Below are positions 471 to 16,327 of a DNA stretch of 20,991 nt, one piece after another (position 1 is the first letter of the stretch; every line of letters starts with the position of its first letter). The translations under genes and the position numbers were made by a program. The stretch is from Saccoglossus kowalevskii (lineage: Eukaryota; Hemichordata; Enteropneusta; Harrimaniidae): contig NW_003158735.1 of the NCBI RefSeq assembly GCF_000003605.2, positions 51,321 through 72,311 on the forward strand, written 5' to 3'. The notes under the pieces were generated by a model. The model saw nothing but the letters and a program-made list of their open reading frames with translations, did no database searches and was not told the origin of the DNA.

Positions 471-499
471 AAGAACAGATTTATTTTAATTTGTAAAAA

Positions 500-690
500 A
501 CGTATTATCATCAAAAGAATACTTACGGGAATGTTGCTCGGAAAATAATTAAAACATATGGGTCTGTTAAAACTTGATAAGCCAAGGATATATTAATATG
601 TCTACCATATGTCACATTAATGCTATCACAATATTGCATGTTACCATATGTCAGCATAAATTACTGTTTAATGTTTAAACCCTTTTCACA
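500..690. repeat. Duplicated spacer block R1, copy 1
   Basis: This block matches 8221-8430 in the same orientation. Shared landmarks include GGTCTGTTAAAACT, GATATTAATATGTCTACCAT followed by TGTCAC, and the TGTTACCAT/TGTCA pairs ending in TTTAAACC. It is the first of five collinear blocks shared by the spacer left of copy A and the spacer left of copy C. I see no coding potential. Confidence 0.85.
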
Positions 691-844
691 CCAACTAATT
701 GCCATGTTTGGGACGGTTTTAAAATACTAGATACCACTTCATGCATGAAATAAAGCAACCAGCGAGGATCTTCTTTATAATATAATCCAAATACGTTTGA
801 ATGATGTTTCTGGAAAAGAAGTTTGTATAAAATTTAAAAAATAA

Positions 845-935
845 GCTTACATCACTTTACAACATTTTAAATTATACTATATTATACATTGATACAAACA
901 TGTATACCTTAAACTTAGCAAATGTTCAAATTGAA
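845..935. repeat. Duplicated spacer block R2, copy 1
   Basis: This block matches 9866-9948 in the same orientation. Shared strings include ACATCACTTTACAACAT, GATACAAA.ATGTATAC and GCAAATGT. In the other copy, block R3 follows at once. Here about 320 bp lie between R2 and R3, and that extra DNA contains glycosyltransferase relic E. Confidence 0.85.
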
Positions 936-980
936 AGAAATTCTCCCTTTATATAGTATATGTCCCTTATGTATCCACAT

Positions 981-1180
981 CGTTGAGAGAATCAGCACAG
1001 AATTACACTCCTAACACAATGTCCAGAATATAATGAGATTTATCTGTCCACAAAGCAGATGAAGTGGGTTTAAAAATCACACAGCGTCAGATTATGTTAA
1101 TAATACTCTTATATTACAAACTGTTTTGACATTGAAGTGTACAAATTAATAATAATTGACTAATAATTGAAGATGACATT
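981..1180 (-). pseudogene. Glycosyltransferase relic E (internal fragment)
   Basis: Read on the minus strand, this is a decayed internal piece of the same gene family as 6558-7616, covering roughly residues 156-228 of that protein. The clearest match is 1050-1160, where GAAGTGGGTTT, ACACAGCGTCAGATT and AATAATAATTGAC align with the segment around the family's E-x-D motif. The aligned Trp codon has become TGA (1077-1079) and the Glu of the E-x-D motif has become TAA (1092-1094), so it cannot encode an active enzyme. Similarity weakens towards 981 (CGTTGAGA, AGCACAGAA) and there is no N- or C-terminal part. It lies in about 320 bp that are missing between the matching blocks of the second spacer copy, so it was either inserted here or deleted there. 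The coding match is clear; its origin is inference. Confidence 0.75.
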
Positions 1181-1254
1181 TCGTGAGTGATGTCAACTAT
1201 TCTGTGAAACATGCATATGTGGGAGAGGAATCCTTGTCCCAATTTTAACCAGAA

Positions 1255-1430
1255 TGCTAAAAAATTATTAAGTGTTCATCAATGAAGTTGTAGTCATTGT
1301 TCCAATAAAATTTATATTCTGAAATTGTGTCAGTTTGTAATGGAACTCAAGATCTCATCACTTGGTCTCAAATTCATGCACGCATACAATATTGCTCCCA
1401 TCAAAACATTACATAGTGTATTGAGAATTC
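1255..1430. repeat. Duplicated spacer block R3, copy 1
   Basis: This block matches 9949-10090 in the same orientation. Shared strings include GTTGTAGTCATTGTTC, ATGGAACTCAAGATC and CATCACTTGGTCTCAAATT. The best-matching part contains a short open frame in both copies, but the frame is not preserved between them, so I treat it as non-coding. Confidence 0.88.
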
Positions 1431-1594
1431 CTTTGTGTCATTCCTCATGGAATTGTATGCATGAGTGCAACGCACATATTGCCATTAATTTATTCAACAT
1501 GCCAAGCATGTGCAGCAGAGTTAGCATGTTATTCGACTCTAAATTGCATTCTTGGTTAGTGCAATCTTGAGGTAAACTAAATTTCTTCTCGGAA

Positions 1595-1915
1595 ATTTTA
1601 TTTCGTCATCACAATCATTAGGATATCTTTGATCTCACTTTAATAACACCACTGTGCACCACGCAATTGCTCAGTTCTTGTACCTCACCAAACACTGCTG
1701 GTGGTATGTGTTACACTAGGAACGTGTAGAATGTAGGGACTCGCGTAGCCTTCACTGATGACACACCTGTCATACAAACAGATTATGTAGAATAGATATA
1801 TACAGCCTCGGCTGGATGCATTTTCTATATAATTACTTAGCTAGTTGTAAATATTTAATTAATGTAGTGGTTTTATTTAAATTATTGAACAGCTATAAAT
1901 TCCACTGTATGTAAA
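1595..1915. repeat. Duplicated spacer block R4, copy 1
   Basis: This block matches 10255-10690 in the same orientation. Landmarks are TAATAACACCACTGT.CACCACGC, TTGTACCTCA, TTCACTGATG followed by CTGTCATAC, and GTGGTTTTATT. The other copy carries about 135 extra bases (about 10410-10546) where this one has only a short stretch near 1738-1748. Confidence 0.88.
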
Positions 1916-2395
1916 TTGTGCGTCTAAATCCCGACGATTCAGTCAATTCAAGGGTGTTTAGGTGACAACACTTATATTTCTAATGAACATTAACAAAAAA
2001 AGGCAGTTTATGATATCTATCTTATTATATCTATCTGACACGTGTAAATATGCTATACACCTCTAAGAACAATTCGCCCCATGTGATCAAAATGATTGCA
2101 TCATATCTAAACACGTCCTTTACATCTCTTCAAGTTTATATAGGAACTAGTTCCAACGCTTCTAGTGAAAATTCGTTAGGCATTCCATGCTTCCGCCTTT
2201 AATCATAAGCGTGTTTGAATTTCAGCTATGGTCTTTGTGAACTATTTTTCAGCTCGTTATAATTTCACTGACGATGAAAAGTCAGCAGTTGACTTACAGT
2301 TGTCCATCATTAGTGTTTTAAATGGGCTTGCATAAAATTAAAATAAATTCACCCAATCACAGCAGGTATAATACACGGCACGTTATGTATGTATT
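1916..2395. other. Intergenic, part of duplicated unit 1
   Basis: No gene is visible. Short matches to 10700-10790 (around ATAATGAAAAGT versus GATGAAAAGTCAGC) suggest the duplication continues in a weakly conserved form. Confidence 0.35.
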
Positions 2396-2401
2396 ATGAG
2401 G

Positions 2402-2496
2402 TTATTACGAGAATACCTCAAAGTATGCACGAAGACAGTATCAACCTACGTGCAGCGTACTTTTTTCGGGCATACTTTGAAGTATTCTCGTAATAA
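2402..2496. repeat. 95-nt inverted repeat (hairpin)
   Basis: The arms 2402-2428 and 2470-2496 are 27 nt each and complementary with one mismatch; the left arm starts TTATTACGAGAATACCTCAA. A 41-nt loop separates them. Pairing can extend inward through 2430-2435 and 2463-2468. I found no counterpart in the duplicated spacer on the right, so it probably arrived or formed after the duplication. It could be a small MITE-like element or a template for a hairpin RNA; the sequence does not decide. Two short open frames cross it and are not taken as genes. Confidence 0.9.
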
Positions 2497-2814
2497 ATTA
2501 TTATCCATCTTTCTCTTCCAAGGATACACCATGGGAACGCCGAAATCAAAAATGTTTAGAAGCGAATCAACGAACTTCTTTGTGTAGAGGACACTTATGC
2601 GCGCAATCATTCTATATTTGAAATTCGCATTTCGTAATATGGTAGGATGGAAATACCCCGTAAAATACCGCAAAATTACGGCACGCTGTAACTTGTGGCG
2701 TTACGGTGACAGATGTATAATAATATAATATATCTCAAGTAGATAAACACGAAACATTACAAATCTACTATATATTCCATGGTGACACTAGCAAACACTG
2801 TCAGGTGTAATGTT

Positions 2815-2910
2815 TGGGTGTGTAAGTGTTCTGTAAGCCAAGGAGTCGCGACTAGCGTTGTGGAAATGGATAATGGAATAATCGCATTAATGAACTATCG
2901 GATTTCGTCA
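2815..2910. repeat. Duplicated spacer block R5, copy 1
   Basis: This block matches 11456-11525 in the same orientation. Shared strings include GCCAAGGAGT, GACTAGCG, and GGAATAATCGCATTAAT against AGAATAATCACATTAAT. It lies on the C-terminal side of copy A, just as its partner lies on the C-terminal side of copy C. Confidence 0.8.
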
Positions 2911-3169
2911 ATAACTGATTATAAATATTCTTGAGCACTAACAAGTTTTTTCCAAATAAAACAATAACATATTACAAGCAACATTTTGCAATGTACCCAC
3001 GCACACATAAACCCAATTGAAGTTTTTTCGGAAACATCCATTTATTTATATTAAACCTTACAAAATGAATATGCAAAATCACAATACTACATTACCCTAT
3101 TTACAATACAATACAAACACAATCACATTTATTACATCCCCATATTTAATGCCATTTGAAGGTTAAATT

Positions 3170-4162
3170 TTAACAGGCGTTGGCGATACAATGCACCGTA
3201 TCACATGATAAAAACCAGTGCCCCCATTTTTGGGCTCGTCTGATTTTGTTCTCGTTGCCAATAAGACAGTTGTTTTGCAGAACAACTGGAGTGAGGTTGT
3301 GTTGCATTTTTACGTTAAGATATCACTGCCCGCTGACAAATCTGTCCTTGGGTAGATAGTTCAGTCTTATTGGGTCCTCACGAATTGCGATGTGCGATAA
3401 CATTACTTGTTTCGAGCCTTTATTAGCACAAATTTTACGTTGTACGTCTTTAAACGTGCGCATATGTTTACTTAGCCTCACGAAGAGTGTATTCCACACC
3501 CGTTGTGTCGCTCTCGTTGAATTGAGAAACAAGAAATCAGCACAAAAACCATCTCCGTTAGCGTAATTTGCGACATTGACGTGCATATCTGATGGATGTA
3601 TCAGTTTACAAAAAAAATAAGAGGGTTTCCAAACCACACAGCGTCAGCTTCGCTTATTAATACACTAATATTACTCGCCAACAACTTATTAATCATCCGT
3701 ACACGGTCCAAATTGATAATAATTGACAGGCCCAAATGACATGGAATCTTCTGCTCCAAATTCTACAAGCAAGACATTCAGTTCTGGTCGCCAACCAAGT
3801 AATCCATCGTATGCAGCTTGGTCAGTAGTAATAAACACCGTTTGTCTCAATACGTCATCAAACAATCCACGTTGCAAATCCAACTTTTTGTGATATTCCA
3901 GTAAGCATAGTTCAAAAACTGCACGACGATAAAGTCATAACGTTTCTGTATAGCTGTACTTATTTTTAGTAACGGGTCATCTTGTACAACTCCATTCTCA
4001 TCAGGTACAAGCGTGCTCTTGGATGAGTCAGCCTGTCGTCTCAGAACCCGAGCGTTGTTGAGTGTCCCACCATCTCATATAAAGGAGATCACGTCAATGT
4101 CATAAATACAACGCAAAGACATAAGACAAAACGAGTTGCTGTCGTGAACTTATTTTGGGTCA
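3170..4162 (-). pseudogene. Glycosyltransferase pseudogene A
   Basis: This is a nearly full-length copy of the gene at 6558-7616, read on the minus strand. The aligned ATG is at 4160-4162, followed by the family's membrane anchor (RFVLCLCVVF). Motifs recognisable in order are STAIQKRY, TVFITTDQAAYDGLLGW, VNYYQFG, SDMHVNVANYA, IREDPIRLNYLP and RRAQKWGHWFL. Lesions seen: an in-frame TGA at 4089-4091, about codon 25; an apparent deletion of about 30 nt in the stem near 4030-4060; one base lost in an A run at 3860-3862; five bases lost near 3709-3710; one base lost between about 3607 and 3622; Trp to TGA at 3323-3325; and an early TAA at 3170-3172, about eight codons before the position equivalent to copy C's end. 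It cannot make the enzyme. The open pieces 3323-3637 and 3689-3883 are fragments of it. Confidence 0.93.
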
Positions 4163-5550
4163 TGATATTGCAACTGCGTTGGTACATAGCCTTGCAAACC
4201 AGTGGGTGAATTGGACCAGTCGTTTTATGGTTTTGACTGTTTACAAAATCACCACTTAGAGCTGGGAACAATTGTCATATACAATTTTGTGTTCACTGAA
4301 TGAATTGATGTGTGAATTTATATACTCTTGCAACACAGACCATTCCATTTCGACACTTAAAGTGACCAATCAACTATTTCATGGTATCCATGGTATTTGA
4401 GTACTTAAATAAAGACATATACAATTTCTGATGAAATCTTGTGCACTGTGTGTTAACACGAATGTTAACGAATAGAACAGGTCATTCAACAACAACAGTT
4501 TTACTAGTAGCACATGGCTAAAAATGCTACTGTATTTTTGTCATGTATTGAGGTTAGTCTTTTTAAAACTCCAATATTTCTTTTAAGAAAGTGATTTCAG
4601 GTTCCATGTACCAATCTACCTTAGAGTATATGATGTAACGTTTTGTAATTATGCCCTTCCCAATTAATACGGCTGATAACAATATTATATATACATCTTG
4701 TCGTGCATTAGCTTACTATTGCTCATTAGCCAATCACCATTACACATCCTTCTAAGCGATATGCTTTAACTTAGTTTACCTGAAAACGCGGATGTTTTTG
4801 CAAGTATTCAACATATTAAGCAGGATAATTGTGACATGTTCTGGCTAATTTACCATCTATGAACTGCTGTTATAGTTCATATTGTTACACTAATGACGTA
4901 AAATATAAAAACACTAAAATGCCGATGCAACATTAATCAACACATTCTTTAACATCATTCGCACTCAGTGTCCAAATTAAAAATTGAAAAAAACGGAATT
5001 GTTTGAGTAACACCAGGTATACATAGTAAAAATGATAAATTATAAGTTTTTTTTATTTATTTGTAATATAATATTACTTTATTTTATTCTGCCAGCATAT
5101 TGGAATCTAATAATGGGACAAACTCTGAATGAGATCTGCACAATGACTTTATTAATTAGAATGACGCGTTTTTTATTTGTTTTTATTTGACGCAGACTAG
5201 TTGGGTCGTTGTGATCACATTGAAGCAATCAGTGTAAACAAACATACTAAACAGTAAATTGCACCGGTGGGCAGACAGTCGGGAAAATGAGTATATGTTG
5301 TCCCAGTATTCAAGGCTCTTCATCAACAGTTTATTTGACGATTACATACAATTTTAAAGATATTCTTTTTCAAAATATTACTTATTGTGACTGCAAAATA
5401 GAATGGAACGGCAAATTTGCAGTGTGCGTCACTGGTGTGATAACGAAATATCTAACACAACGCATTGTGGTGCCATAGGAAGCTATGTTTAAATATAGCT
5501 CTGTCTTTTAACAGTGTCCCATACTACAATATTGCTGTTCCATTTTCATT
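4163..5550. other. Intergenic between copies A and B
   Basis: I find no gene, RNA gene or clear repeat here. The sequence is AT-rich with short homopolymer runs (for example near 5047). The 5' flank shared by copies B and C is not recognisable upstream of copy A. Confidence 0.5.
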
Positions 5551-5554
5551 GCTG

Positions 5555-5933
5555 TCACAGACAGTAGGTTATTCCAGCTCCCTGTATGTGGGCGATAATA
5601 GGGCATGATTTCCACCTGTGATAACTCTTATGAGAGTTCAACGCCGAGGGTTTATCGGATCCGAACTCGGCTCGTGACAAATGCGTAAACTCATTTAGTT
5701 CTACTGGCTCAATCGGTTGGGCTCCAATAAATGCGTCATGTGGTATGGTATGTGATTTTTGGTGCTGGTCTGTCAACCTCACATTGGAGATAGGGATGCC
5801 AAACGTGGAGCATGTAGACAGACATTCGTGTTTTAGTTTTTGTAGTGTTTGTGCTATCAGCTTGATGGAAGCCAGCATTTGGCATGTGTGGTGTCAAGGA
5901 GTACGGATGCGATGCGATATCTACTTGTACCAT
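5555..5933 (-). other. Unrecognised open stretch, two overlapping frames
   Basis: Two minus-strand frames overlap here: 107 codons at 5555-5878 and 65 codons at 5736-5933. Base composition is visibly less AT-rich than the surroundings, and a single frameshift near 5750 would join the ATG at 5931-5933 to the longer frame. That is compatible with a decayed exon or transposable-element fragment. I recognise no domain in either translation and see no splice or promoter support. It may equally be chance. Confidence 0.15.
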
Positions 5934-5944
5934 AGTCCTTAGAG

Positions 5945-6490
5945 AACGGTAACATGCAACTGTTGGTTTCCTTTCATGTAACCTTAGTTATAATCCTCTA
6001 CCCAATTAACACCTTAGTGAAACTAACAATAAATCTATGTCAACACTGTAACATCCTCACCTGTTCCATGAGCCAAACATGGCTGCCAGGGAGTAGCTAC
6101 ACAAAATGGACCAACTTTGTTGTTAGAATATGATCAGTAAAATTACATTTGATCAAAACTGAATAGCCAAGTCAATTCTATTCATACCAGTGAAAGTAAA
6201 ATTACACGTCAATGTCTTGAAATGTCGCTTACGCGTTTTAATATTGGCACAGTGCTTCATTTGAACTTACATTTTATTCGTATCGTTCGTATAGTAGACA
6301 TGGAACTGACTCAATATTAAATAATAACATCTACAACTCCTTTTACAAATATATCAACCGTACCATGTTTGTAAAGGAGTCGCAATTTTACGTTGTCTAT
6401 CTTCCTTGTATTTGAACTGTATTCCAGCTTGACATAAATGGCTGATATTTAACAATCAGTCCGCCCGCAATGATATAACACATTCGCAAT
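5945..6490. other. Intergenic downstream of gene B
   Basis: No gene is seen. It contains one short inverted repeat (6336-6380) and otherwise ordinary AT-rich sequence. Confidence 0.45.
6336..6380. repeat. Short inverted repeat
   Basis: The left arm ACTCCTTTTACAAA (6336-6349) is complementary to TTTGTAAAGGAGT (6368-6380) with a single bulged T and an 18-nt loop. It lies on the 3' side of gene B, about 180 bases beyond the stop codon. No function can be assigned. Confidence 0.7.
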
Positions 6491-6498
6491 GTAAAGTA

Positions 6499-6504
6499 TT
6501 TATT
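6499..6504 (-). terminator. Candidate polyadenylation signal of gene B
   Basis: On the minus strand this reads AATAAA, about 54 nt after the stop codon of the intact glycosyltransferase. Spacing and sequence fit a short 3' UTR. This is prediction only; AATAAA is common by chance in DNA this rich in AT. Confidence 0.45.
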
Positions 6505-6557
6505 TTTTAGTTATACCCATGTCTAATTTCATTCCAATACAAACAAAGTCGCTATAA

Positions 6558-7616
6558 CTAAAACGCCATATGGAAAGATACATTTTTACAGGCATTGGTT
6601 ATACATTGCGTCATATCCTTTGATAAAAACCAATGCCCCCACTCTTGGGCTCTTTTGATTTTTTTCTTGTTACCAATGACATAGTTATTTTGCAAGACGA
6701 CTGGAGTGAGGTTGTGTTGCATTTCTATACTGTTGTACCACTGCCCACTGACAAACTTGTTTTTGGGTAGATAATTCAGTCTGATTGGGTCTTCACGAAT
6801 TGCGATATCTGATAACATTATTTGTTCTGCACCTTCTTTACCAATGTTCTGTTGTTCTTCTTTGAACATGCTCATCCGTTTACCTAGTCTCTCGGACAGC
6901 GTATCCCACACTCGTTGTGTTGCTGTCGTTGCATTGAGAAACAGGAAACCAGCACAGAAACCATCTCCTTTAGCGTAATTTGCGACATTGACGTGCATAT
7001 CCGAGGGATCTTCTCGTCTACGGAAGAGTTGAAGTGGGTTTCCAAACCACACAGCATCGGACTCTGTTATTAATACACTAATATTTCTTGTCAACAACAT
7101 ACCAATTGTCTTTACACGAAACAGTCCAAATAGATAATAATTGACATGCCCAAATGACATAGAATTTTTAGTTCCGAATTCTAGAAGCAAGACATTTAGG
7201 TGAGGTCGCCAGCTAAATAATCCATCCCGTGCTGCTTGGTCAGTTGTAATAAACACCGTTTGCTCTAATACGTCGTTAAAACAATCAACGTTGCAAATCC
7301 AACTCTTTGCCATATTTAAGTAAGCGTGGTTCAAAAACTGCACAACGATAAAACCATAACGTTTTTGTATAGCTGTACTTATTTCAAGTAATTTGTTTTT
7401 CTCGGCACTTGTATTGACTCCGTTCACATTAGGTACAAGCACGCTCTCAGATGAATCAGCCAATCTATTATCGTGTCTATCGCCAGACATTACCATCTTC
7501 AACTCTGTACGTGGTCGAATGTTCCACCAAGAGAAGTATCCATGCAGGAACCCAGCCAACGTCAAAAATGTAACACACAAACATGATACAAAACGAGTTG
7601 ATATCTTTTGAGACAT
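6558..7616 (-). CDS. Intact nucleotide-diphospho-sugar glycosyltransferase B
   Basis: This is a single-exon gene of 352 codons with A at -3 of the ATG. The protein has type II Golgi layout: a short cytosolic tail, a hydrophobic anchor at about residues 9-28, a stem to about 80, then a PF03407-like transferase domain. Visible family features are FLNHAYLNMAKSWICNV (about 94-110), TVFITTDQAARDGL (120-133), the metal/sugar-nucleotide motif ITESDAVWFGNP (183-194), FCAGFLFLN (220-228), IREDPIRLNYLP (273-284), and VVLQNNYVIGN with EWGHWF near the end. The acidic motif is E-S-D (185-187), not D-x-D. Sequons occur at N68, N178, N228, N302 and N345. By family, it should transfer a sugar from a nucleotide sugar onto a secreted or membrane glycan; donor and acceptor cannot be told. 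Between B and C, codon changes at 7021-7300 are mostly synonymous (about 15 to 8 by eye), which suggests the protein has been under constraint. It is the only unbroken copy. Confidence 0.93.
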   Translation of the reverse strand: MSQKISTRFVSCLCVTFLTLAGFLHGYFSWWNIRPRTELKMVMSGDRHDNRLADSSESVLVPNVNGVNTSAEKNKLLEISTAIQKRYGFIVVQFLNHAYLNMAKSWICNVDCFNDVLEQTVFITTDQAARDGLFSWRPHLNVLLLEFGTKNSMSFGHVNYYLFGLFRVKTIGMLLTRNISVLITESDAVWFGNPLQLFRRREDPSDMHVNVANYAKGDGFCAGFLFLNATTATQRVWDTLSERLGKRMSMFKEEQQNIGKEGAEQIMLSDIAIREDPIRLNYLPKNKFVSGQWYNSIEMQHNLTPVVLQNNYVIGNKKKIKRAQEWGHWFLSKDMTQCITNACKNVSFHMAF

Positions 7617-7688
7617 CGTATTGCAGCTACATTAGCGGTATGTGTCTGAGCTTTGTGTGATCGCCTCATATTAGTGTTTTAGGTTTGA

Positions 7689-7694
7689 TTTATA
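7689..7694 (-). promoter_or_regulatory. Candidate TATA element of gene B, proximal
   Basis: On the minus strand this reads TATAAA, about 73 nt before the ATG. The equivalent position in the copy C flank reads TCTAAA. There is no transcript evidence; this is a motif prediction. Confidence 0.35.
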
Positions 7695-7716
7695 GACAAT
7701 TTATCGCGGGGAGGAC

Positions 7717-7722
7717 TTTATA
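7717..7722 (-). promoter_or_regulatory. Candidate TATA element of gene B, distal
   Basis: The minus-strand sequence is GCATATAAAG, about 100 nt before the ATG, next to the GC-rich patch CCTCCCCGCG that is conserved with copy C. Copy C has GCATATTTGC instead, so this element differs between the intact and the broken gene. Confidence 0.4.
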
Positions 7723-7984
7723 TGCAGATATGTCAAGTACAAGGTTATTATCTGACTGAAACCACAATGCTTAAAAGGCCAATATATATGTGATATTTTG
7801 GGAAATTGTGATACTTTCAAAGGCAATAGGCGAGTTCTAAGACCAATTTTGCATGTCATGCGAAATGGGTTTAATCCCCCATTTATCAATGGAATATCCT
7901 ATAAAAATATTGAACGTTTATTACACAATGCGAAAATGCAGTACCCTCGTGCACTTTTTAGAATTCATAGATCTCCTAGAATTT

Positions 7985-8200
7985 GAATACTGAAATATAT
8001 GCACAACTTATGGCTAATCGAGATTATCTCGAAATACCATATAGTCTAAAAGTCTACACTCTACAACATTGTATGAGCCTTGTATTAGAACACACCATTT
8101 GTGGGTTTCTTCTTATAAAAGTATAACTGACAAGTGTATGTTTATTGTCGCGTGACCTACATAACAGTTAGAGACAAGTTATAAGAAATAAGGTGATCGT
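7985..8200. other. Intergenic between the B flank and unit 2
   Basis: No gene or repeat is recognised. It separates the duplicated B/C flank from the start of the second copy of the duplicated spacer. Confidence 0.4.
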
Positions 8201-8220
8201 CCTGGGACAATTCAAAAGAA

Positions 8221-8430
8221 AAATTTTAATGTGTGTGAAAAACGTAATATTATCAAAAACTATAGGTACTTATGGATACACAGCAGAATCGAACATTAAT
8301 TTAAAAGATATTGGTCTGTTAAAACTGAATAATGCAGCGGATATTAATATGTCTACCATGTGTCACCTTAATGTTATCAGATGTTACCTGTTACCATCTG
8401 TCACCATTAATATGCCATGATTTAAACCAA
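8221..8430. repeat. Duplicated spacer block R1, copy 2
   Basis: Partner of 500-690, same orientation. An open frame of 75 codons crosses it but is not conserved in the partner, so no gene is called. Confidence 0.85.
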
Positions 8431-8534
8431 AATTGCATTCAATTTTTTTACACCTTCTAATTGATATGACAGAAGCGTCCGTAAAAACATTATATGTCTG
8501 AATAAAATAAACGAGTAACTTCTTTGATTTGCGA

Positions 8535-9860
8535 ACTATAGTCAAAGAGCGTGGAGAGAGTTGTCACCACCATCCAGGAAAATTTGTTCATTCAGTTGGT
8601 CTTATAGGGTTGTGTGTTCTAATTATTGAATAAGTTTTGGTATTAAATATTTAAGTCGAAGCCTTGCTGGAGCAAGGAGCATGTCGATAGGCGGTTTGAT
8701 GCTAAGGTCACGTATACTTGGATTTCTTATTGGGGTCAATCATTCCTTACTACGTCACTTTTTGCAACGATGGTGGCTTTTCTGACTGACTTGTGTTGAC
8801 CTGCAATGGACGAAAATCATATGCCATTCAGTTTCGATTAAACTTCATATTGCAAATCTTTTCAATGTCCACAATAATTCCAGTTATAGCTTGGATAAGA
8901 TAATATGTGGGAATTCTATGGAAACATCAATTGAATGATACTCCACAGACTGTCATACTTGAGTATAATGATGACTCTTATCATTCAAATAATAATAAAT
9001 ATGAACATTTCCGATCGTTGGTAAAATATTCAGCTAAAATAAATATATCATGTTTGAGTATTACTCACGTTCGCTTTAAAATGTTATTTTCTTGCCTTAA
9101 TAAGTGTTTGATGATTCCTAAAATTTAATAACATGTAAAACATCCGCTAAAATCACGCTCCCTCTCACCAGCAATTGCGTTAAAGACGTAAAGGCGCTGT
9201 TCACGAGATGCTGGTAAAACTGGTACAGCTTAGTACAGATTACATGGTGTTAGAATTCTGTGTTTAACTCCGTGATCGAGCAGGTGCAGCTAAAATCAAG
9301 CACCAGTGGTCTATTATTAAGGTTTGACTCAATGTGGCTCTTTCGAGTATTAAAATATAGGTCATACTACTGAAGAAGAGTAAAAAAAACTAAAGTTCTC
9401 GGCTACTTGTATCTTGCTTATGAAATTATAGATTTTAGTTGGACAAGCAGTACGTAGAAGTAATAGCAGCATGAACAGCAGTCAGTCAGTTTTGAGAGTC
9501 TAATTTCAGTTTATGTCCCACACTCTCTAAGTACACACATGTTTTTTGGTATCACATTATTAACAAATGTAGAAGGCAGTTTACTTTAGGCGGATAGTGA
9601 CCACGTATCCCATCATACGCTCATCAAAAATAATTTCACCCATCAACAATGTCCCAACAGAAACGTAATCAGGCATATCCGCCATATTAAATGTAGGAGC
9701 AATTCTAAATTTAAGTATGGCTCAATAAAACATATTTCAAACACACACTCGGCAGATTACCGACAGTAACGTATGCTTCCATTCTTGATTGTGATGTTAA
9801 TCATCCGTACATATCACACAAATACTTCAGTATTTAAACTGATTTAAGCAGCCGTCCAGT
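8535..9860. other. Extra 1.3 kb in unit 2 between blocks R1 and R2
   Basis: In unit 1 the interval between the R1 region and R2 is only about 150 bp, with weak similarity continuing to AAATAAA...CTTCTTT (near 774 and 8525). Here it is about 1.3 kb. I find no open frame of note, no terminal repeats and no target-site duplication that I could confirm, so I cannot say whether it is an inserted element or DNA lost from unit 1. Confidence 0.5.
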
Positions 9861-9865
9861 ATTGG

Positions 9866-9948
9866 AATACATCACTTTACAACATCTTAGATTATAATAT
9901 ATCAATAAAGGATACAAATATGTATACTATAAATATGGCAAATGTAGA
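9866..9948. repeat. Duplicated spacer block R2, copy 2
   Basis: Partner of 845-935. It joins directly to block R3, without the glycosyltransferase relic present in unit 1. Confidence 0.85.
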
Positions 9949-10090
9949 ATATGATAAAAATATATTACGTGATCACCAATGTTGTAGTCATTGTTCTGAT
10001 GAAATATGTATATTAAGCTTGTGGCATATTGTGATGGAACTCAAGATCCCATCACTTGGTCTCAAATTGTACCAATGTGCCAAGCATGTG
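9949..10090. repeat. Duplicated spacer block R3, copy 2
   Basis: Partner of 1255-1430, with the shared core ATGGAACTCAAGATC then CATCACTTGGTCTCAAATT. A shared CCAAGCATGTGCA string shows the duplicate continues to about 10100 here and about 1515 in copy 1, with an indel between. Confidence 0.88.
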
Positions 10091-10254
10091 CATCATAGTT
10101 CAGTTGAATCATTTGCATGTGTCTGGCTTCTAGGTACAGCTTATCAATGACTTTTATGCATTTTTGGTCAGTGGAGCCTTTGAGGTAAACATCCTCATGA
10201 CAATTGTATGCAGAAGTTCAGTTATATAATCTTCTGTCTAGTTTCTGATTGGTA

Positions 10255-10690
10255 TCGTCATCACAAATCTGTGAAGGATCCCTAATCATTATGATATCTT
10301 TAATCTCACTCTAATAACACCACTGTACACCACGCCTTTGATCAGTTGTTGTACCTCATCAAACATTGCTGCTGGTGTGTGCTATAAAACGCGTAGAGTG
10401 TATGGACTTTGAATCGCTTGGTAGATAACTCTTACGCTGGAAAGATATTCATCTCGACTTGAAGGGATGAAAAAAAAAGACAAATTAGTGATCACGTCAC
10501 CCATTTGCGCATCTGTTACCAGTTTATACAACGTCACCGTATTCACTGATGGTACATCTGTCATACCGGCAGGTTATGTAAGACAGATAGATAAAGACCG
10601 TAGCCTTTTTTTATACAATTACTAAGCAAGTAGTAACATTTTAATTATTGCAGTGGTTTTATTAAAATAATTGTACAGAGATAAAGGAAA
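10255..10690. repeat. Duplicated spacer block R4, copy 2
   Basis: Partner of 1595-1915. It contains about 135 bases (about 10410-10546) with no match in copy 1, bordered by the shared GACT and TTCACTGATG sequences. Otherwise it is collinear. Confidence 0.88.
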
Positions 10691-10699
10691 AGTCGTAAG

Positions 10700-11440
10700 G
10701 CTTAACATTCTGCCGCCTTGGGTTACTGCTTTCCATGATTAGATATTTATGGTTATTTCATGGATAATGAAAAGTTGGCACTTGATACATTCGTTCAGAG
10801 ACATGTATCACATCAACACTATACCAGTATTAATCACAACCGCGCATTCAAATGTTTAATATAATATATAATAATCGTCAGCATCCTTTATTCTATGTTT
10901 TTGTCACATTACACCAAACCCTGCAAATAGAAGTGTTCGTGGAATCATGGAAAGAACGGTGTTCATTACTATGTGATAACTGTTGTAAAGGTGATTGATA
11001 GGTCATACTTGTTTACAACTCAGGAAGGACAATTGGAATCTACTAGGCGTATTTGTGATTCAAATAACAAAGGATGTTTACGATCTACTGAGTTCCCTAC
11101 GTGAGGCAGGTGCTAGCAATACCACATTCTGATTGGCTCATGTGGAAACCCAGGGTGTACATGAATCTCGGCCATTTATGCCTATAAATTGGCTAGACTG
11201 AGGACAATTGTGGTTCATTATTTAAACTAAGTACTCTGTGTATTGCTGCTGCGATATTGTTATTTATATGATGTATGTGTATGTGTATTTCATTTCATTT
11301 CAGGTAATATTGTATTGTCTACCCTATTCTAGCAGTGAAAGAACCCACTGTTCAGTGTCTGTTCAAAACACAAAACAGTACGAATCGACTGTACCATCCT
11401 TAATAACACCAACAGAGAAAAGGGGTGTATGTGCACTTGT
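10700..11440. other. Intergenic, unit 2
   Basis: No gene is recognised. A 100-codon plus-strand frame at 11238-11540 runs into duplicated block R5, where its partner shows no matching open frame, so I do not call it. Confidence 0.4.
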
Positions 11441-11455
11441 GCTGCACATTGAAAT

Positions 11456-11525
11456 GGGCTTTGCCAGCCAAGGAGTATGGACTAGCGATGTGAATAATAG
11501 AATAATCACATTAATAAACCACGAT
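11456..11525. repeat. Duplicated spacer block R5, copy 2
   Basis: Partner of 2815-2910. It lies about 470 bp from the C-terminal end of copy C. The longer distance than in unit 1 (about 240 bp) shows further indels between R5 and the gene. Confidence 0.8.
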
Positions 11526-11995
11526 TATATATATTTGTGACCCATTCTATTTATTAAACTTTACATGATGAATGATCTAAATAGGTGACACAAAAAACAT
11601 TGAGACAAGCATATCAGTGTTTTACGACTATTTTGGTAAATAATTATAGTGCTAGCATTGCTAAAACGGAATATACGGACCTCTAACCAATACAAATTTA
11701 CTCCGCTAGAATAGTATATCAATACAGTACAATGACATGATTGTTACATGACTATTACATGCCCATTTACGACACAGTGGCACAGAGACTAGTACTTAGG
11801 TCTGTGAACATTTGGTTATATGTATTTCATGCATTTCACGACCCGATGAATCATTGTCAAACACAGTAATTTCCGAGCATATCACCAAATCTTTTAAAAC
11901 ATAATATCGGCATATTTACAATACAAACAAAATCAAATTAACTGAATTACCTTATTACCAATACGAACAGAATTACAATGATAAAATCGCCTTAT

Positions 11996-13044
11996 TTAAT
12001 GCCATTTTGAAGTTAAGTTTTCACAGGTGTTAGCTATACATTGCACCGTATCACTTGATAAAAACCAGTGCCCCCATTTTTGGGCTCTTCTGATTTTGTT
12101 CTCGTTGCCAATAACATAGTTGTTTTGCAGAACAACTGGAGTGAGGTTCCTTTGCATTTCTACTTTATGGTACCACTGCCCGCTGACAAATCTGTCCTTG
12201 GGTAGATAGTTCAGTCTGATTGGGTCTTCACGAATTGCGATGTTCGATAACAGTACTTGTTCCGAACCTTTAGTACCGATGTTCTGTTGTTCGTCTTCAA
12301 ATGTGCTCAAACGTTTACTTAGTCTCATAGACAATGTATTCCACACTCGTTGTGTTGATCTTGTTGCATTGAGAAACAGGAAACAAGCACAGAAACGACC
12401 TCTTATAGCATAATTTGCGACATTGACGTACATATCTGAGGAATTTATCTGTCTACGGAACAATTGAAGTGGGTTTCCAAACCAAACAGCGTCAGATTCT
12501 GTTATTAATACACTAATATTTCTTGTCAACAACATACCAATTGTCTGTACACGGAAGAGTCCAAATTGATAATAATTGACATGCCCGTATGACATAGAAT
12601 TTTTAGTCCCAAATTCTATAAGCAAGACATTCAGATGAGGTCGCCAACCAAGTAATCCATCGTACGCAGCTTGGTCAGTAGTAATAAACACCGTTTGCTC
12701 TAATACGTCATCAAAACAATCCACGTTGCAAATCCAACTTTTTGTCATATTCAAGTAAGCATGGTTCAAAAACTGCACAACGGTAAACCATAACGTTTTT
12801 GTATAGCTGTACTTATTTCAAGTAATTTCTCGGCACTCAGGTACATATTAGGCACAACCACGTTCTCGAATGAATCAGCCAAGCTTTTTTCCTGTCTACC
12901 GCCAGACATTGCCATCTTCAGCCTTGTAGGTGGTCGAATGTTCCACCAAGAGAAGTATCCATCAAGAAACCCAGTCAACATCAGAAATGTAACACACAGA
13001 CATAATACTAAACGAGTTGATATCTTTAACATGTTTTGAGACAT
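11996..13044 (-). pseudogene. Glycosyltransferase copy C, single frameshift
   Basis: This is a full-length homologue of gene B, 1049 nt against 1059. The first 86 codons (from the ATG at 13042-13044) encode the tail, membrane anchor (about residues 12-31) and stem. The frame then runs to a stop at 12766-12768. The catalytic part continues open in another frame from about 12784 to the TAA at 11996-11998. The cause is one missing base in an A run at 12785-12787: copies A, B and D all keep the four-base phase at this point. The E-S-D motif, the ATTDQ-like segment, LNYLPKDRFVSGQ and RRAQKWGHWFL are all preserved, and I see no other lesion. If the missing base is real it would remove the catalytic domain. 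A homopolymer assembly error is a live alternative, and then this would be a second intact gene of about 349 codons. TATA-like elements seen in B are altered here. Confidence 0.9.
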
Positions 13045-13405
13045 CGTATTGCAACTATATTAGAGGTCTGTGACTGAGCGTTGTTTGATCGCCTCATGTC
13101 AGGGTTTTAAGGTTTGATTTAGAAACAATTTATCGCGGGGAGGATGCAAATATGCAGATGTGTCGAAATACAAGGTTATTATCTGACTGAATCCACATTG
13201 CTGAAAAGGCGAATATATATGTGATATTTGGAGAAATTGTGATACTTTTAAAGGCAATAAGCGAGTCCTACCACCAATTTTGCACGACATGCAAAAAAAT
13301 AAAAGTGGTTCAATGCCCCCCATTTATCAATGGAATATCCTATGAAAAATATTGGACATATATTACCCAATGCGAAAATGTAGTACACATGTGCACAAGT
13401 TGTAT
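13045..13405. repeat. Duplicated 5' flank of copy C
   Basis: Partner of 7617-7975. It ends shortly after GCGAAAATG.AGTAC, where similarity to the B flank is lost. Confidence 0.95.
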
Positions 13406-13586
13406 TCTACGTAAAAAAACAATAATATTTGTCTGTGCATCTATAACTGTAGCAGTTTAAAGGACTATGACAGTTGTCTGGTATTGCGTTATATGTTTTC
13501 TTGAATTGTATTTTTACTATACCTAAGTGTTCCGAATATAGCGTAGTTAGTGTGAAATCACATTTAGCTAGGGAGGCTATTAGGGG

Positions 13587-13997
13587 TTGCCCTTATTGGC
13601 AGCAGCTCAAGAACTCGGCGATTTGTTTACAAGGCTGGACGGCTGCATAGTAGTTTTATGGTTTCTCTTCGATTTAGATGGTTTCTCACTTCACTTATAC
13701 AGCAAACGTCAAGATTTGAATTTTGTATTTACCTACCTGTTAGTGAACTGTTGGAAGGAATCGTTACGCAATAAACGTATAAAGTTGCACTGTTATCGCG
13801 ATCTGCTAGTTTGTTATTGTCGGCACTTCGCCGTCTGCACGCGATCTGACGTGAACTTGTACATACAAATAGAACGATTTATTCCTGTAGGTTACATGTT
13901 TAGTATCGATTGGGAACTTATAAGACTCATGCGGAATTACTATAGGAAGCTAGTGTTTTCGTTTATCCTAGTACGATTTGCGACTACATTAAGATAA
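13587..13997 (+). CDS. Unrecognised 136-codon open frame, doubtful
   Basis: This is the longest open frame outside the glycosyltransferase family. Its composition is less AT-rich than its neighbours, which itself lowers stop-codon frequency. The translation is rich in Leu, Arg, Tyr and Phe, with a hydrophobic stretch near residues 20-36. I recognise no domain, signal peptide, zinc finger or repeat. There is no convincing Kozak context, polyadenylation signal or duplicated partner. It could be an exon, a transposon scrap or chance. Confidence 0.15.
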   Translation: MPLLAAAQELGDLFTRLDGCIVVLWFLFDLDGFSLHLYSKRQDLNFVFTYLLVNCWKESLRNKRIKLHCYRDLLVCYCRHFAVCTRSDVNLYIQIERFIPVGYMFSIDWELIRLMRNYYRKLVFSFILVRFATTLR

Positions 13998-14928
13998 TAC
14001 GAGTATGACTTAACATAGTTTTCATTATAGCAGAAATACCGACAAGCAAATGGATATTGTGATTCGTATAACTTTTTTTTCTGTAGTAGCAAGGATAGGA
14101 GTGGGCTTCTACCAAACACTACAGTATGCCTGTTATATATAAATGATCATTCGCATATCTATTATCTGATTAATAATAATAATGTAGGACGCAATTGTGA
14201 TTGCTGTCAAAACATTGTATTAATAATTGCATTCATCAACTTGTTTATGTCCGGTAGACATGTGTCACACGCATATCAACAACTTCTCTTTTTTTATCTG
14301 TTAGACCCATTCAGTTGGCTGGTACCCATAGAAAATTGGTTATTTGAAGCATGTTTGTTACTTAGTGTAATTAACATTAATTTTGAAATGTATTATAATA
14401 TTAATCATTTTCTTATTTTTTAATGCCAGAAGTATTGCTTTCGAAATCTTATTATCTGTTCGAACTGAAACTTTTGTCGCCGGTATCCACGTATATCCAT
14501 GTCTCTCAACGCCCTTCAGTTGAATGAAAACATTGTGAATCGCAATACTGTCTATCCAATGCAGTTCACCAGTTTAAGCCATTAAAATACACGCGCATTA
14601 TAGTTTAAATAAGATAATCGCTTCTCGATTTTGTTTCTATTAGCAGATTGATTAGTTCCCTGTAAGAGTGACACATTGAATGATGCATTCAAAATCTTAT
14701 GAACACGGCAATGTGTAGTTTACACTAATATATAATCGACAGAACTGTAGTACAGAACATCTCACAGGATTACTGGTAGTACAGTACAGCCTTGGGAACT
14801 ATATGTTTAACAACCAAGAAAGAATGGTCTAATGCGAATATAAAAACGATGTAGAATTGACCCTCCACCTGTACAACTGTCGCTTTGATAATGGGCCGTC
14901 AAACGAAATTAAGTATCAATTTTAAATG

Positions 14929-14931
<3 letters not shown>

Positions 14932-14969
<38 letters not shown>
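14932..14969. repeat. AT dinucleotide microsatellite
   Basis: This is an uninterrupted AT/TA run of about 38 bases, similar in length to that at 120-158. It lies about 325 bp before copy D. Confidence 0.97.
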
Positions 14970-14973
<4 letters not shown>

Positions 14974-15294
14974 TGGTTGCCAATCACAGTTAGAGAAATT
15001 CACTAATAAATGTCTACCCAATTTTCAGGTCTAAATTAGGTTGATTCTACTACTTCGAATGATTCACTCATAACAAATTGCATTTGTATAGGTTATGGTA
15101 TTTGATGTTTTACCAAAATAAGTAATTATTTAAAATAATTTATTCTGCTTGTTTCCCATTTTGGTCATTAAGGAAAATAATATTTAAACATAAACATAAT
15201 ATTTTCATTCATTTATTATTGAATTTATTATACGTTTTATATAATTTTATTAAATTATTATAAGGCTGAAGCTGTGTTAATCATATATTGCAAT

Positions 15295-16327
15295 ATGGTG
15301 TCCAAAAGCGCACTGAAAATAATAGCGCGCTGTTTGTGTGTTGCCGCCATCAGAGCATCTATCATTTTCTCAACGGGAAACTATAACAGTGATTAGATAT
15401 TTAACAACCGTTTTAAGTGTGAATCTGGTTTAGATAGTCTGGTGCCAGTCCAGGGACATTATTAAAATAATGATACATTCACGAACATGAACAAATTTAG
15501 TTAGAATAGGCTCAGATATACAGAAACGTTATTGTTTTATCGTTGTGCAGTTTTTGAACCATGCTTACTTGAATATGACAAAGAGTTGGATTAGCAACGT
15601 GGATTGTTTTGATGACGTATTGGAACAAACGATTTTTATTACTACTGGCCCAAATGCATACGATGGATTACTTGGTTGGCGACCTGAACTGAATGTCAGG
15701 CTTATATAATTCGGAACAGAAGACCCTATGTCATATGGGCGTGTCAATTATTATCAATTTGAACTGTTCCGTGTAAGGATGATTAATGAGTTGTTGGCGA
15801 GTAATATTAGCATATTAATAACCGAAGGTGACGCTGTGTGGTTTGGAAACCCACTTCATCTGTTTCGTGAAAAGCCGATTCCCTCAGATATGTACGTAAA
15901 TATCGCAAATTACGCTGATGAATCACAATTCTGTGCTTGTTTTCTGTACCTTAATGCAACAAGGGCAACACAAAGAGTGTGGAATACACTATCCACAAGA
16001 CTGGCTAAATGTATGAGCAACTTTAAACAAGGACAGCAGAACATTCATTTTCGAGGTTCGGAACCAGTAATGTTTTTCAACATTGCTATTCGTGAGGACC
16101 CCATCAGATTGACTTATCTTCCCAGAGACAGATTTGCCAGTGGACAGTGGTACCATAGTGAGGATATGCAGCAAAACATCAGTCCAGTTGTTTTGCAAAA
16201 CAACTATGTTACTGGTAATGAGAACAAATTAAGAAGAGCCCAGAAGTGGGGACACTGGTTTTTGGCAAAAAATACAACACAGTGTCTATATGATAAATGT
16301 CAAAGTTTAATTTCTAAATCGCTCTGA
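15295..16327 (+). pseudogene. Glycosyltransferase pseudogene D
   Basis: This is the only plus-strand copy and is nearly full length. The segment from 15295 encodes a decayed anchor (ARCLCVAA) and stops at TAG 15394-15396. GCAAT followed by ATG GTG TCC aligns with GCAAT ACG ATG TCT of gene B, so the original start seems to have become GTG with a new ATG one codon earlier. Stem-like codons around 15433-15457 stay in that frame, with a further stop at 15463-15465. The catalytic part continues in another frame from about 15491, starting near IQKRYCFIVVQFLNHAYLN. A nonsense TAA at 15707-15709 replaces the Glu of the EFGT segment. From there the frame is open to TGA 16325-16327. The acidic motif is E-G-D (15824-15832). 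FITT is followed by GPNA instead of DQAA, an odd change in a conserved spot. A protein starting at the ATG at 15728 would lack anchor and N-terminal domain. Confidence 0.9.

Follow-up and report, generated by a model that had tools for sequence, protein, structure and literature searches.

How does a run of related genes come to hold one intact copy among several broken ones, and can the losses be counted on a single tree? We examined this question in a 20,991-nucleotide stretch of the hemichordate Saccoglossus kowalevskii (the window), which covers positions 51,321 to 72,311 of contig NW_003158735.1 (C4782, 117,370 bases) in a 572-Mb genome. All the copies compared come from this one assembly. 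The window contains five copies, A to E, of a gene for a predicted sugar transferase with the Pfam domain PF03407. Our preferred reading, to which we assign a probability of roughly 0.8, is that the copies belong to a cluster of intronless PF03407 genes that is rich in pseudogenes and turns over rapidly, shaped by duplication of genes together with their flanks, by exchange of segments between copies, and by later breakage.

The copies and their lesions

Copy B (window positions 6558-7616, minus strand) is an intact coding frame of 352 amino acids. A (3133-4177, minus strand) is multiply broken, C (11996-13044, minus strand) is one base short, and D (15287-16327, plus strand) is multiply broken and inverted relative to A, B and C. 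E (980-1160, minus strand) is a 181-bp relic of part of the catalytic domain, spanning approximately codons 162-235 with gaps and containing internal stops; codons are numbered from the first after the stop upstream of B, which places the ATG of B at codon 6. A profile built from A to D retrieved all four over nearly its full length with nhmmer, and recovered E with an E-value of 7e-19 even though E was absent from the profile. By tblastn, E matches codons 163-202 with stops of its own, and its aligned bases are identical to C at 148/176 positions, to A at 143/176, to B at 141/173 and to D at 133/172. The profile, the Pfam matches and the list of lesions thus confirm the inventory given in an earlier reading of the DNA alone (the original prediction). 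The coding frames of the copies are without introns, and it is to coding frames that the label intronless applies.

The five members counted previously stand as a count for the window; the cluster itself is larger, with eight copies found on C4782 in all. Genome searches placed the broken copy F at C4782:28278-29338 and the broken copy H, which is in pieces, at C4782:86081-87132, and searches and trees identified G (C4782:81100-82187), also broken, as the sister of D; all three lie on the plus strand. A second contig, C3895, carries the close copies P1, P2 and P3. P1 has an open frame of 361 amino acids, 69% identical to B, and is the nearest intact relative of B, which is the only intact copy seen on C4782. 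P2 shows no stop up to the run of N that cuts it off, and P3 is broken.

Compared with B, A has suffered five deletions that shift the frame, two in the stem (5 and 29 bp) and three in the core (1, 5 and 1 bp). It also has three stops in the frame of B (TGA27, TGA298 and TAA349), and two of its partial frames, searched alone, gave no Pfam match. D has a core stop, TAA151, and a broken stem: the frame that begins at its own ATG meets a stop at about 15394, and the frame changes on entry to the core; its open part still matches PF03407 (1.9e-17, 64.4 bits, profile positions 42-207). C is affected by a single 1-bp deletion near 12788 (codon 93) and has no stop in the frame of B, and its main frame matches PF03407 at 2.3e-24 and 87 bits. 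The deletion site is a short T run: B, D and G have four T there, and in A, F and P1 a different base precedes three T. The missing base may be recent, polymorphic or an error, and is the least secure of the lesions.

The original prediction held that each copy was lost independently. The lesions of A, C and D do not coincide among the three, which agrees with that claim. Across the larger set, however, stops recur: at codon 142, CGA has become TGA in F and in G, though not in D, the sister of G, and at codon 151, GAA has become TAA in D and in P3, though not in their relatives G and P1. A CpG-type change such as CGA to TGA often recurs. Parallel mutation and a short transfer are both possible causes of the recurring stops. 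We also considered that D and G had inherited a common dead N-terminus, and set this aside because G has an open N-terminus, about 80 codons long and surrounding its own ATG, at a place where D has a stop. Both copies shift frame near the junction of stem and core, and one common frameshift is possible there.

Probable exchange of segments between copies

The strongest of the candidate exchanges is a tract in D and G. We divided the alignment into three segments (codons 6-80, 81-205 and 206-350) and built trees with ultrafast bootstrap (UFBoot). D was sister to G, which lies outside the window, in all three segments (UFBoot 96, 99 and 97). The distance from D to A changes along the gene: third positions differ by 0.51-0.54 in the stem, by 0.08-0.15 in codons 81-205, and by 0.38-0.40 thereafter. 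Before codon 221 there are 17 third-position differences in 138, and after it 54 in 130, a contrast reached in 0/5000 permutations. The same break test gave 134/5000 for B-D and 126/5000 for C-D, and neither A-B nor A-C showed a significant third-position change along the gene. The branch leading to D and G follows the same course, with lengths of 0.48, 0.046 and 0.226 in the three segments. Because G shows the same pattern as D, the transfer is older than the split of the two copies.

Synonymous divergence (dS) of D to A, B and C is 0.21, 0.39 and 0.31 in codons 81-205, compared with 1.04, 1.01 and 0.89 in codons 250-350, and this lower dS to all three inside the tract indicates that the ancestor of D was probably the recipient. 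D lacks the core deletions of A inside the transferred stretch, so the transfer preceded the breakage of A, if A itself was the donor. We propose that an A/F-like donor overwrote approximately 375 bp in the ancestor of D and G, within an older backbone. In D, the candidate conversion tract, A/F-like by its third positions, corresponds to codons 81-205 at window positions 15494-15870 on the plus strand, with approximate ends.

Second in strength is a patchwork in C. At 96 diagnostic sites A, F and P1 share one state and B has another, with C matching either the one or the other. Along the gene C is B-like at 21/26 sites in codons 7-80, A/F-like at 13/13 in codons 102-145, B-like at 15/19 in codons 154-205, mixed in codons 206-237 (3/7 B-like), and A/F-like at all 31 sites in codons 243-345. 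A/F-like sites therefore make up 31/31 after codon 243 and 26/65 before it, and 0/10000 permutations were as strong. A quartet sites test gave 0/20000. In a test resembling the pairwise homoplasy index (PHI), conflicting sites were clustered at 0/10000 for 49 sites and at 26/10000 for 23 third positions. C as the product of a single crossover was dropped in favour of a patchwork after analysis of the order of sites. We propose that C became a B/A-like patchwork by recombination between copies.

For the A-D quartet, codons 81-205 support AD|BC, with the other topologies at 6e-4 or less in the approximately unbiased (AU) test, and the best tree for codons 250-350 is AC|BD, which is not decisive (others AU 0.08). 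In codons 206-350, A falls together with F and the copies on C3895 (UFBoot 80), and its placement in codons 81-205 has a UFBoot of 31. A local clade of A to D, as originally expected, is rejected in codons 81-205 (AU 5e-5) and in codons 206-350 (AU 8e-6), and D instead joins G. A clade of the six C4782 copies A, B, C, D, F and G has AU values of 0.23 and 0.022 in the same two segments. No single tree fits the copies well, and with segments exchanged there is no one tree on which to count lesions; counts of lesions per branch are unsafe.

From the sequences, we infer that gene conversion or unequal crossing-over caused the patterns in D/G and in C. The D/G tract resembles ectopic gene conversion in being a bounded stretch of high similarity, silent sites included, in otherwise diverged paralogues. 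Mean conversion tracts run from about 50 to several hundred bp according to a passage in PMC3924818, a range that includes the approximately 375 bp of this stretch. Conversion between inverted neighbours, as a way to resolve breaks in them, is described in PMC3924832. A difference from ectopic conversion is that most of the partners seen here are broken genes.

Duplication, constraint and competing explanations

The flanks indicate how the copies arose. We compared 12 flank pairs among A to D with 200 dinucleotide shuffles, and a clear relationship emerged for two, B with C on the 5' side and A with C on the 3' side (0/200 shuffles each); the next pair, A-B 3', reached 18/200. The 5' flank of B (7632-7954, minus strand) is common to C over 322 aligned bases at 88.5% identity, and in a genome search it matched two places, B and C. 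The 5' flank of A does not align with it. The 3' flank of A (483-3147, minus strand) is collinear with that of C at 8223-12003, in seven aligned pieces of 80-87% identity; the flank of C itself occupies 8223-11995 on the minus strand. Pieces of this flank also match C4782:29347-29419, beside F, and C4782:31438-32031. D and G have common flanks as well, in pieces over about 1.2 kb upstream and 2.1 kb downstream (77-94%). Flanks duplicated along with genes show segment duplication at the DNA level rather than retrocopies, and the cluster grew by duplication of gene-plus-flank units. Relic E lies inside a 312-bp part of the A flank (942-1253) that has no counterpart in the C flank (near 9951-9972), and so it was either inserted there or deleted on the C side.

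We then asked how constraint and loss are distributed. The ratio of non-synonymous to synonymous divergence (dN/dS) in the core is 0.25-0.42 for the six A-D pairs, with every interval below 1. In a second set of 15 pairs, B-R1 was saturated and the other 14 gave 0.22-0.60; 13 of these intervals lie below 1, the exception being P1-P3 (0.37-1.19). Pairs in which both copies are broken are included in this range (A-F 0.33, A-C 0.40, C-F 0.33, D-G 0.41 with an interval of 0.26-0.67). In the stem, dN/dS is 0.56 for AB, 0.65 for AC and 0.74 for BC, with intervals reaching above 1. Two genes dead since their split would give a ratio near 1, and the lower values indicate that a large part of the divergence accumulated while constraint still acted, so the losses are probably young. 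Selection for glycan diversity, which the original prediction had suggested, finds no support in these core averages, since every computable ratio is below 1; the averages leave room for a few positively selected sites.

Changes private to one copy distinguish the copies further. Per site, with four copies, the private non-synonymous/synonymous ratio is 0.34 for A, 0.20 for B, 0.23 for C and 0.52 for D (D against B, p = 0.015; A against B and C, p = 0.31). A seven-copy test over codons 81-348, where neutrality predicts a non-synonymous share of 0.80, found 12/34 in B (p = 2.6e-8), 9/16 in C (p = 0.029, uncorrected), 8/14 in F (p = 0.048), 13/23 in G (p = 0.01), 16/25 in A (p = 0.052) and 18/22 in D (p = 0.68). 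The ratio depends on the set of copies, moving from 0.72 to 1.16 for D and from 0.34 to 0.78 for F. We conclude that B is clearly constrained, that D has apparently been dead for much of the period after its separation from G, and that the other copies fall between. Taken as a pair, D and G (0.41) still fall below the neutral ratio, despite the neutral-looking private changes of D. In the history we propose, most copies would have been constrained for a good part of their existence and then broken, leaving B intact on C4782. The earlier picture of a cluster caught at every stage of decay is overstated, since C retains some sign of constraint (before correction) and its missing base is insecure.

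Several results weigh against this account. Codons 206-350 of the A-D quartet reject no topology (AU 0.09, 0.63 and 0.46); C with B is not rejected in codons 206-350 (AU 0.13), nor is C with A, F, P, D and G to the exclusion of B in codons 81-205 (AU 0.30). The longest runs in a GENECONV-like test of A to D, best for B-C (79/5000) and A-D (124/5000), are nonsignificant when corrected for six pairs. When A, B and C are compared alone, the core third positions of C have no significant break (633/5000), although the break is significant for all core sites (6/5000) and for first and second positions (44/5000). B and P1 have 46 bp in common about 260-360 bp upstream of the start (window 7876-7921 and L032:3227-3271, 83%), so the B-C flank may be ancestral and merely lost from A. 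A dN/dS below 1 can also arise from one live and one dead gene. In the intact P1, 12/17 private changes are non-synonymous, without significant constraint (p = 0.26), and this calls for caution over the power of the test. Once the seven tests are corrected for, B alone is significant at 0.05.

One alternative is a plain birth and death of copies without exchange, where differences along the gene would reflect uneven constraint or uneven rates. The excess of stem over core dN/dS in the three pairs computed (AB, AC and BC) agrees with it, as do the tree tests that keep one topology for C and the failure of the whole core to reject any quartet topology (AU 0.93, 0.12 and 0.07). We nevertheless consider it improbable, given that D-A third-position divergence shifts about threefold in mid-domain (0.12 to 0.42) with no significant change in A-B or A-C, and that conflicting sites are clustered. 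Birth and death as the original prediction described it is well matched by the duplications, varied divergence and pseudogenes, although not in its plain form, because segments were exchanged between copies. Pseudogenes are a mark of birth and death in PMC3924832, where ectopic conversion is discussed as well. The present cluster has the varied divergence and many pseudogenes of such families and differs from them in that segments seemingly moved between copies.

A more serious concern, though still rather unlikely, is that some lesions, that of C above all, are errors of sequencing or assembly and that more copies are intact. The single lesion of C is one base at a short T run, its private changes depart from neutrality before correction, and one of the 1-bp losses of A is also in a short T run. 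Error is unlikely for the lesions of A and D, which are of several types, including the 5- and 29-bp deletions of A and substitutions to stops in both, and the private changes of D look neutral. Retrocopying, in which the intronless copies were made through RNA, would explain the coding frames without introns, and we regard it as extremely unlikely. It is disfavoured for A-C, B-C and D-G by flanks duplicated with the genes, and eight of nine matches to more distant family members likewise have one open frame over the domain. Pseudogene donors feed some variable receptor genes. By analogy, the broken copies might form a sequence reserve from which conversion re-shapes live copies, such that chimaeras of the C type arise repeatedly with new preferences for donor or acceptor and C, a patchwork whole except for one base, is the latest; this idea we hold to be speculative and very unlikely. 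Duplication of gene-plus-flank units, exchange of segments and later breakage is the reading we retain.

Predicted function, the wider family and significance

B has an open frame of 357 codons, whereas shuffling the window 20 times produced no stop-free frame longer than 135 codons. It matches PF03407 at 1.1e-23 and 84.7 bits (gathering score 22) over profile positions 3-207 of 208, with the domain at residues 122-327. PF03407 (Nucleotid_trans) is a nucleotide-diphospho-sugar transferase domain, and B, C and D all score above its curated cut-off. The N-terminus of B consists of a short tail, a hydrophobic anchor near residues 5-28 and a stem that leads into the domain; the five most hydrophobic 19-residue windows all begin at residues 5-10 (up to 1.65), and there are five N-glycosylation sequons. 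Domain and anchor together point to a type II, Golgi-type membrane enzyme as the most likely identity of B, one that would move sugar from a nucleotide-sugar donor. The CAZy family GT77 is probably the wider family of PF03407, which would make B a candidate member. A passage in PMC8724618 describes the GT77 protein AgtA of Dictyostelium as an alpha-galactosyltransferase whose relatives include a Golgi enzyme of T. cruzi and plant pectin enzymes.

B has an E-x-D motif at residue 185, within E-S-D-A-V-W, and it takes the place of an expected D-x-D. Of 21 aligned pieces from near and distant members in this genome, 19 have E-x-D, so it is a feature of the family and not of decay; the two without it are relic E and a gapped piece of A, whose other piece has the motif. 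B lacks 9 bp at codon 9 (about 7607) and 11 bp at codon 353 (6558-6575) that are present in A, C and D, so the last few residues of B are its own; the latter loss follows the domain. The 46-bp upstream match of B and P1 could be a kept control element of live copies. A PDB sequence search with B found no close solved structure (a single match at an E-value of 0.73), and NCBIfam gave no match for B or C. No related locus for B was confirmed among two pattern matches in viral contigs and six in genome contigs, and tblastn of B against phages gave no match.

Searches of the whole genome returned at least 18 matches with PF03407 and at least 25 with B, several of them pieces of one gene, and uncovered the duplicated family with gains and losses that had been anticipated. 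More distant copies lie on C3979, C725, C3323, C1316 and C4657, where 8/9 matches have the whole domain in one open frame of 337-614 amino acids, and the lack of introns is thus not special to this cluster. On C3323, positions 613765-625530 (L029 and L030) hold a tandem array of four distant members, all on one strand and open over 395-614 amino acids, apparently a second, intact cluster of the same family. Approximately 40,200 of the 117,370 positions of C4782 read N, among them the long runs that border the window (32053-51320 and 72312-77214), and more copies may be hidden there. Just before N, the 3' flank pieces of A/C type at C4782:31438-32031 have the orientation of A and C, and the piece at 31964-32031 (L016) suggests one more hidden minus-strand copy.

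Rfam and tRNA scans of the window gave no matches. It contains 22 frames of at least 80 amino acids, and Pfam searches of 13 that lie outside the five copies yielded one sub-threshold match, to otubain (14.1 bits against a cut-off of 24.3). Long AT dinucleotide repeats occur at 112-167 and 14932-14969. An inverted repeat at 2402-2496 has 39-nt arms, 90% complementary, spaced by 17 nt. Sequence beside it, at about 2476-2726, matches C4782:91507-91773 (75%) as well as sequence on C3979 (L035, 76%) that lies immediately downstream of a distant member of the family, and the repeat may be a small dispersed element.

Taken together, the cluster is a clear example of an ordinary and already known kind of gene-family turnover. 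In literature surveyed by titles and abstract openings only, no PF03407 cluster in an animal was described. For annotation, B is the copy to trust and C the copy that needs a check against reads. The known picture of gene-family turnover is unchanged, as birth and death with ectopic conversion is already well described. The locus is a compact case in which lesion counts in a tandem family are unsafe on one tree because segments move while copies decay, and it adds a clear example of both processes seemingly running in decaying copies.

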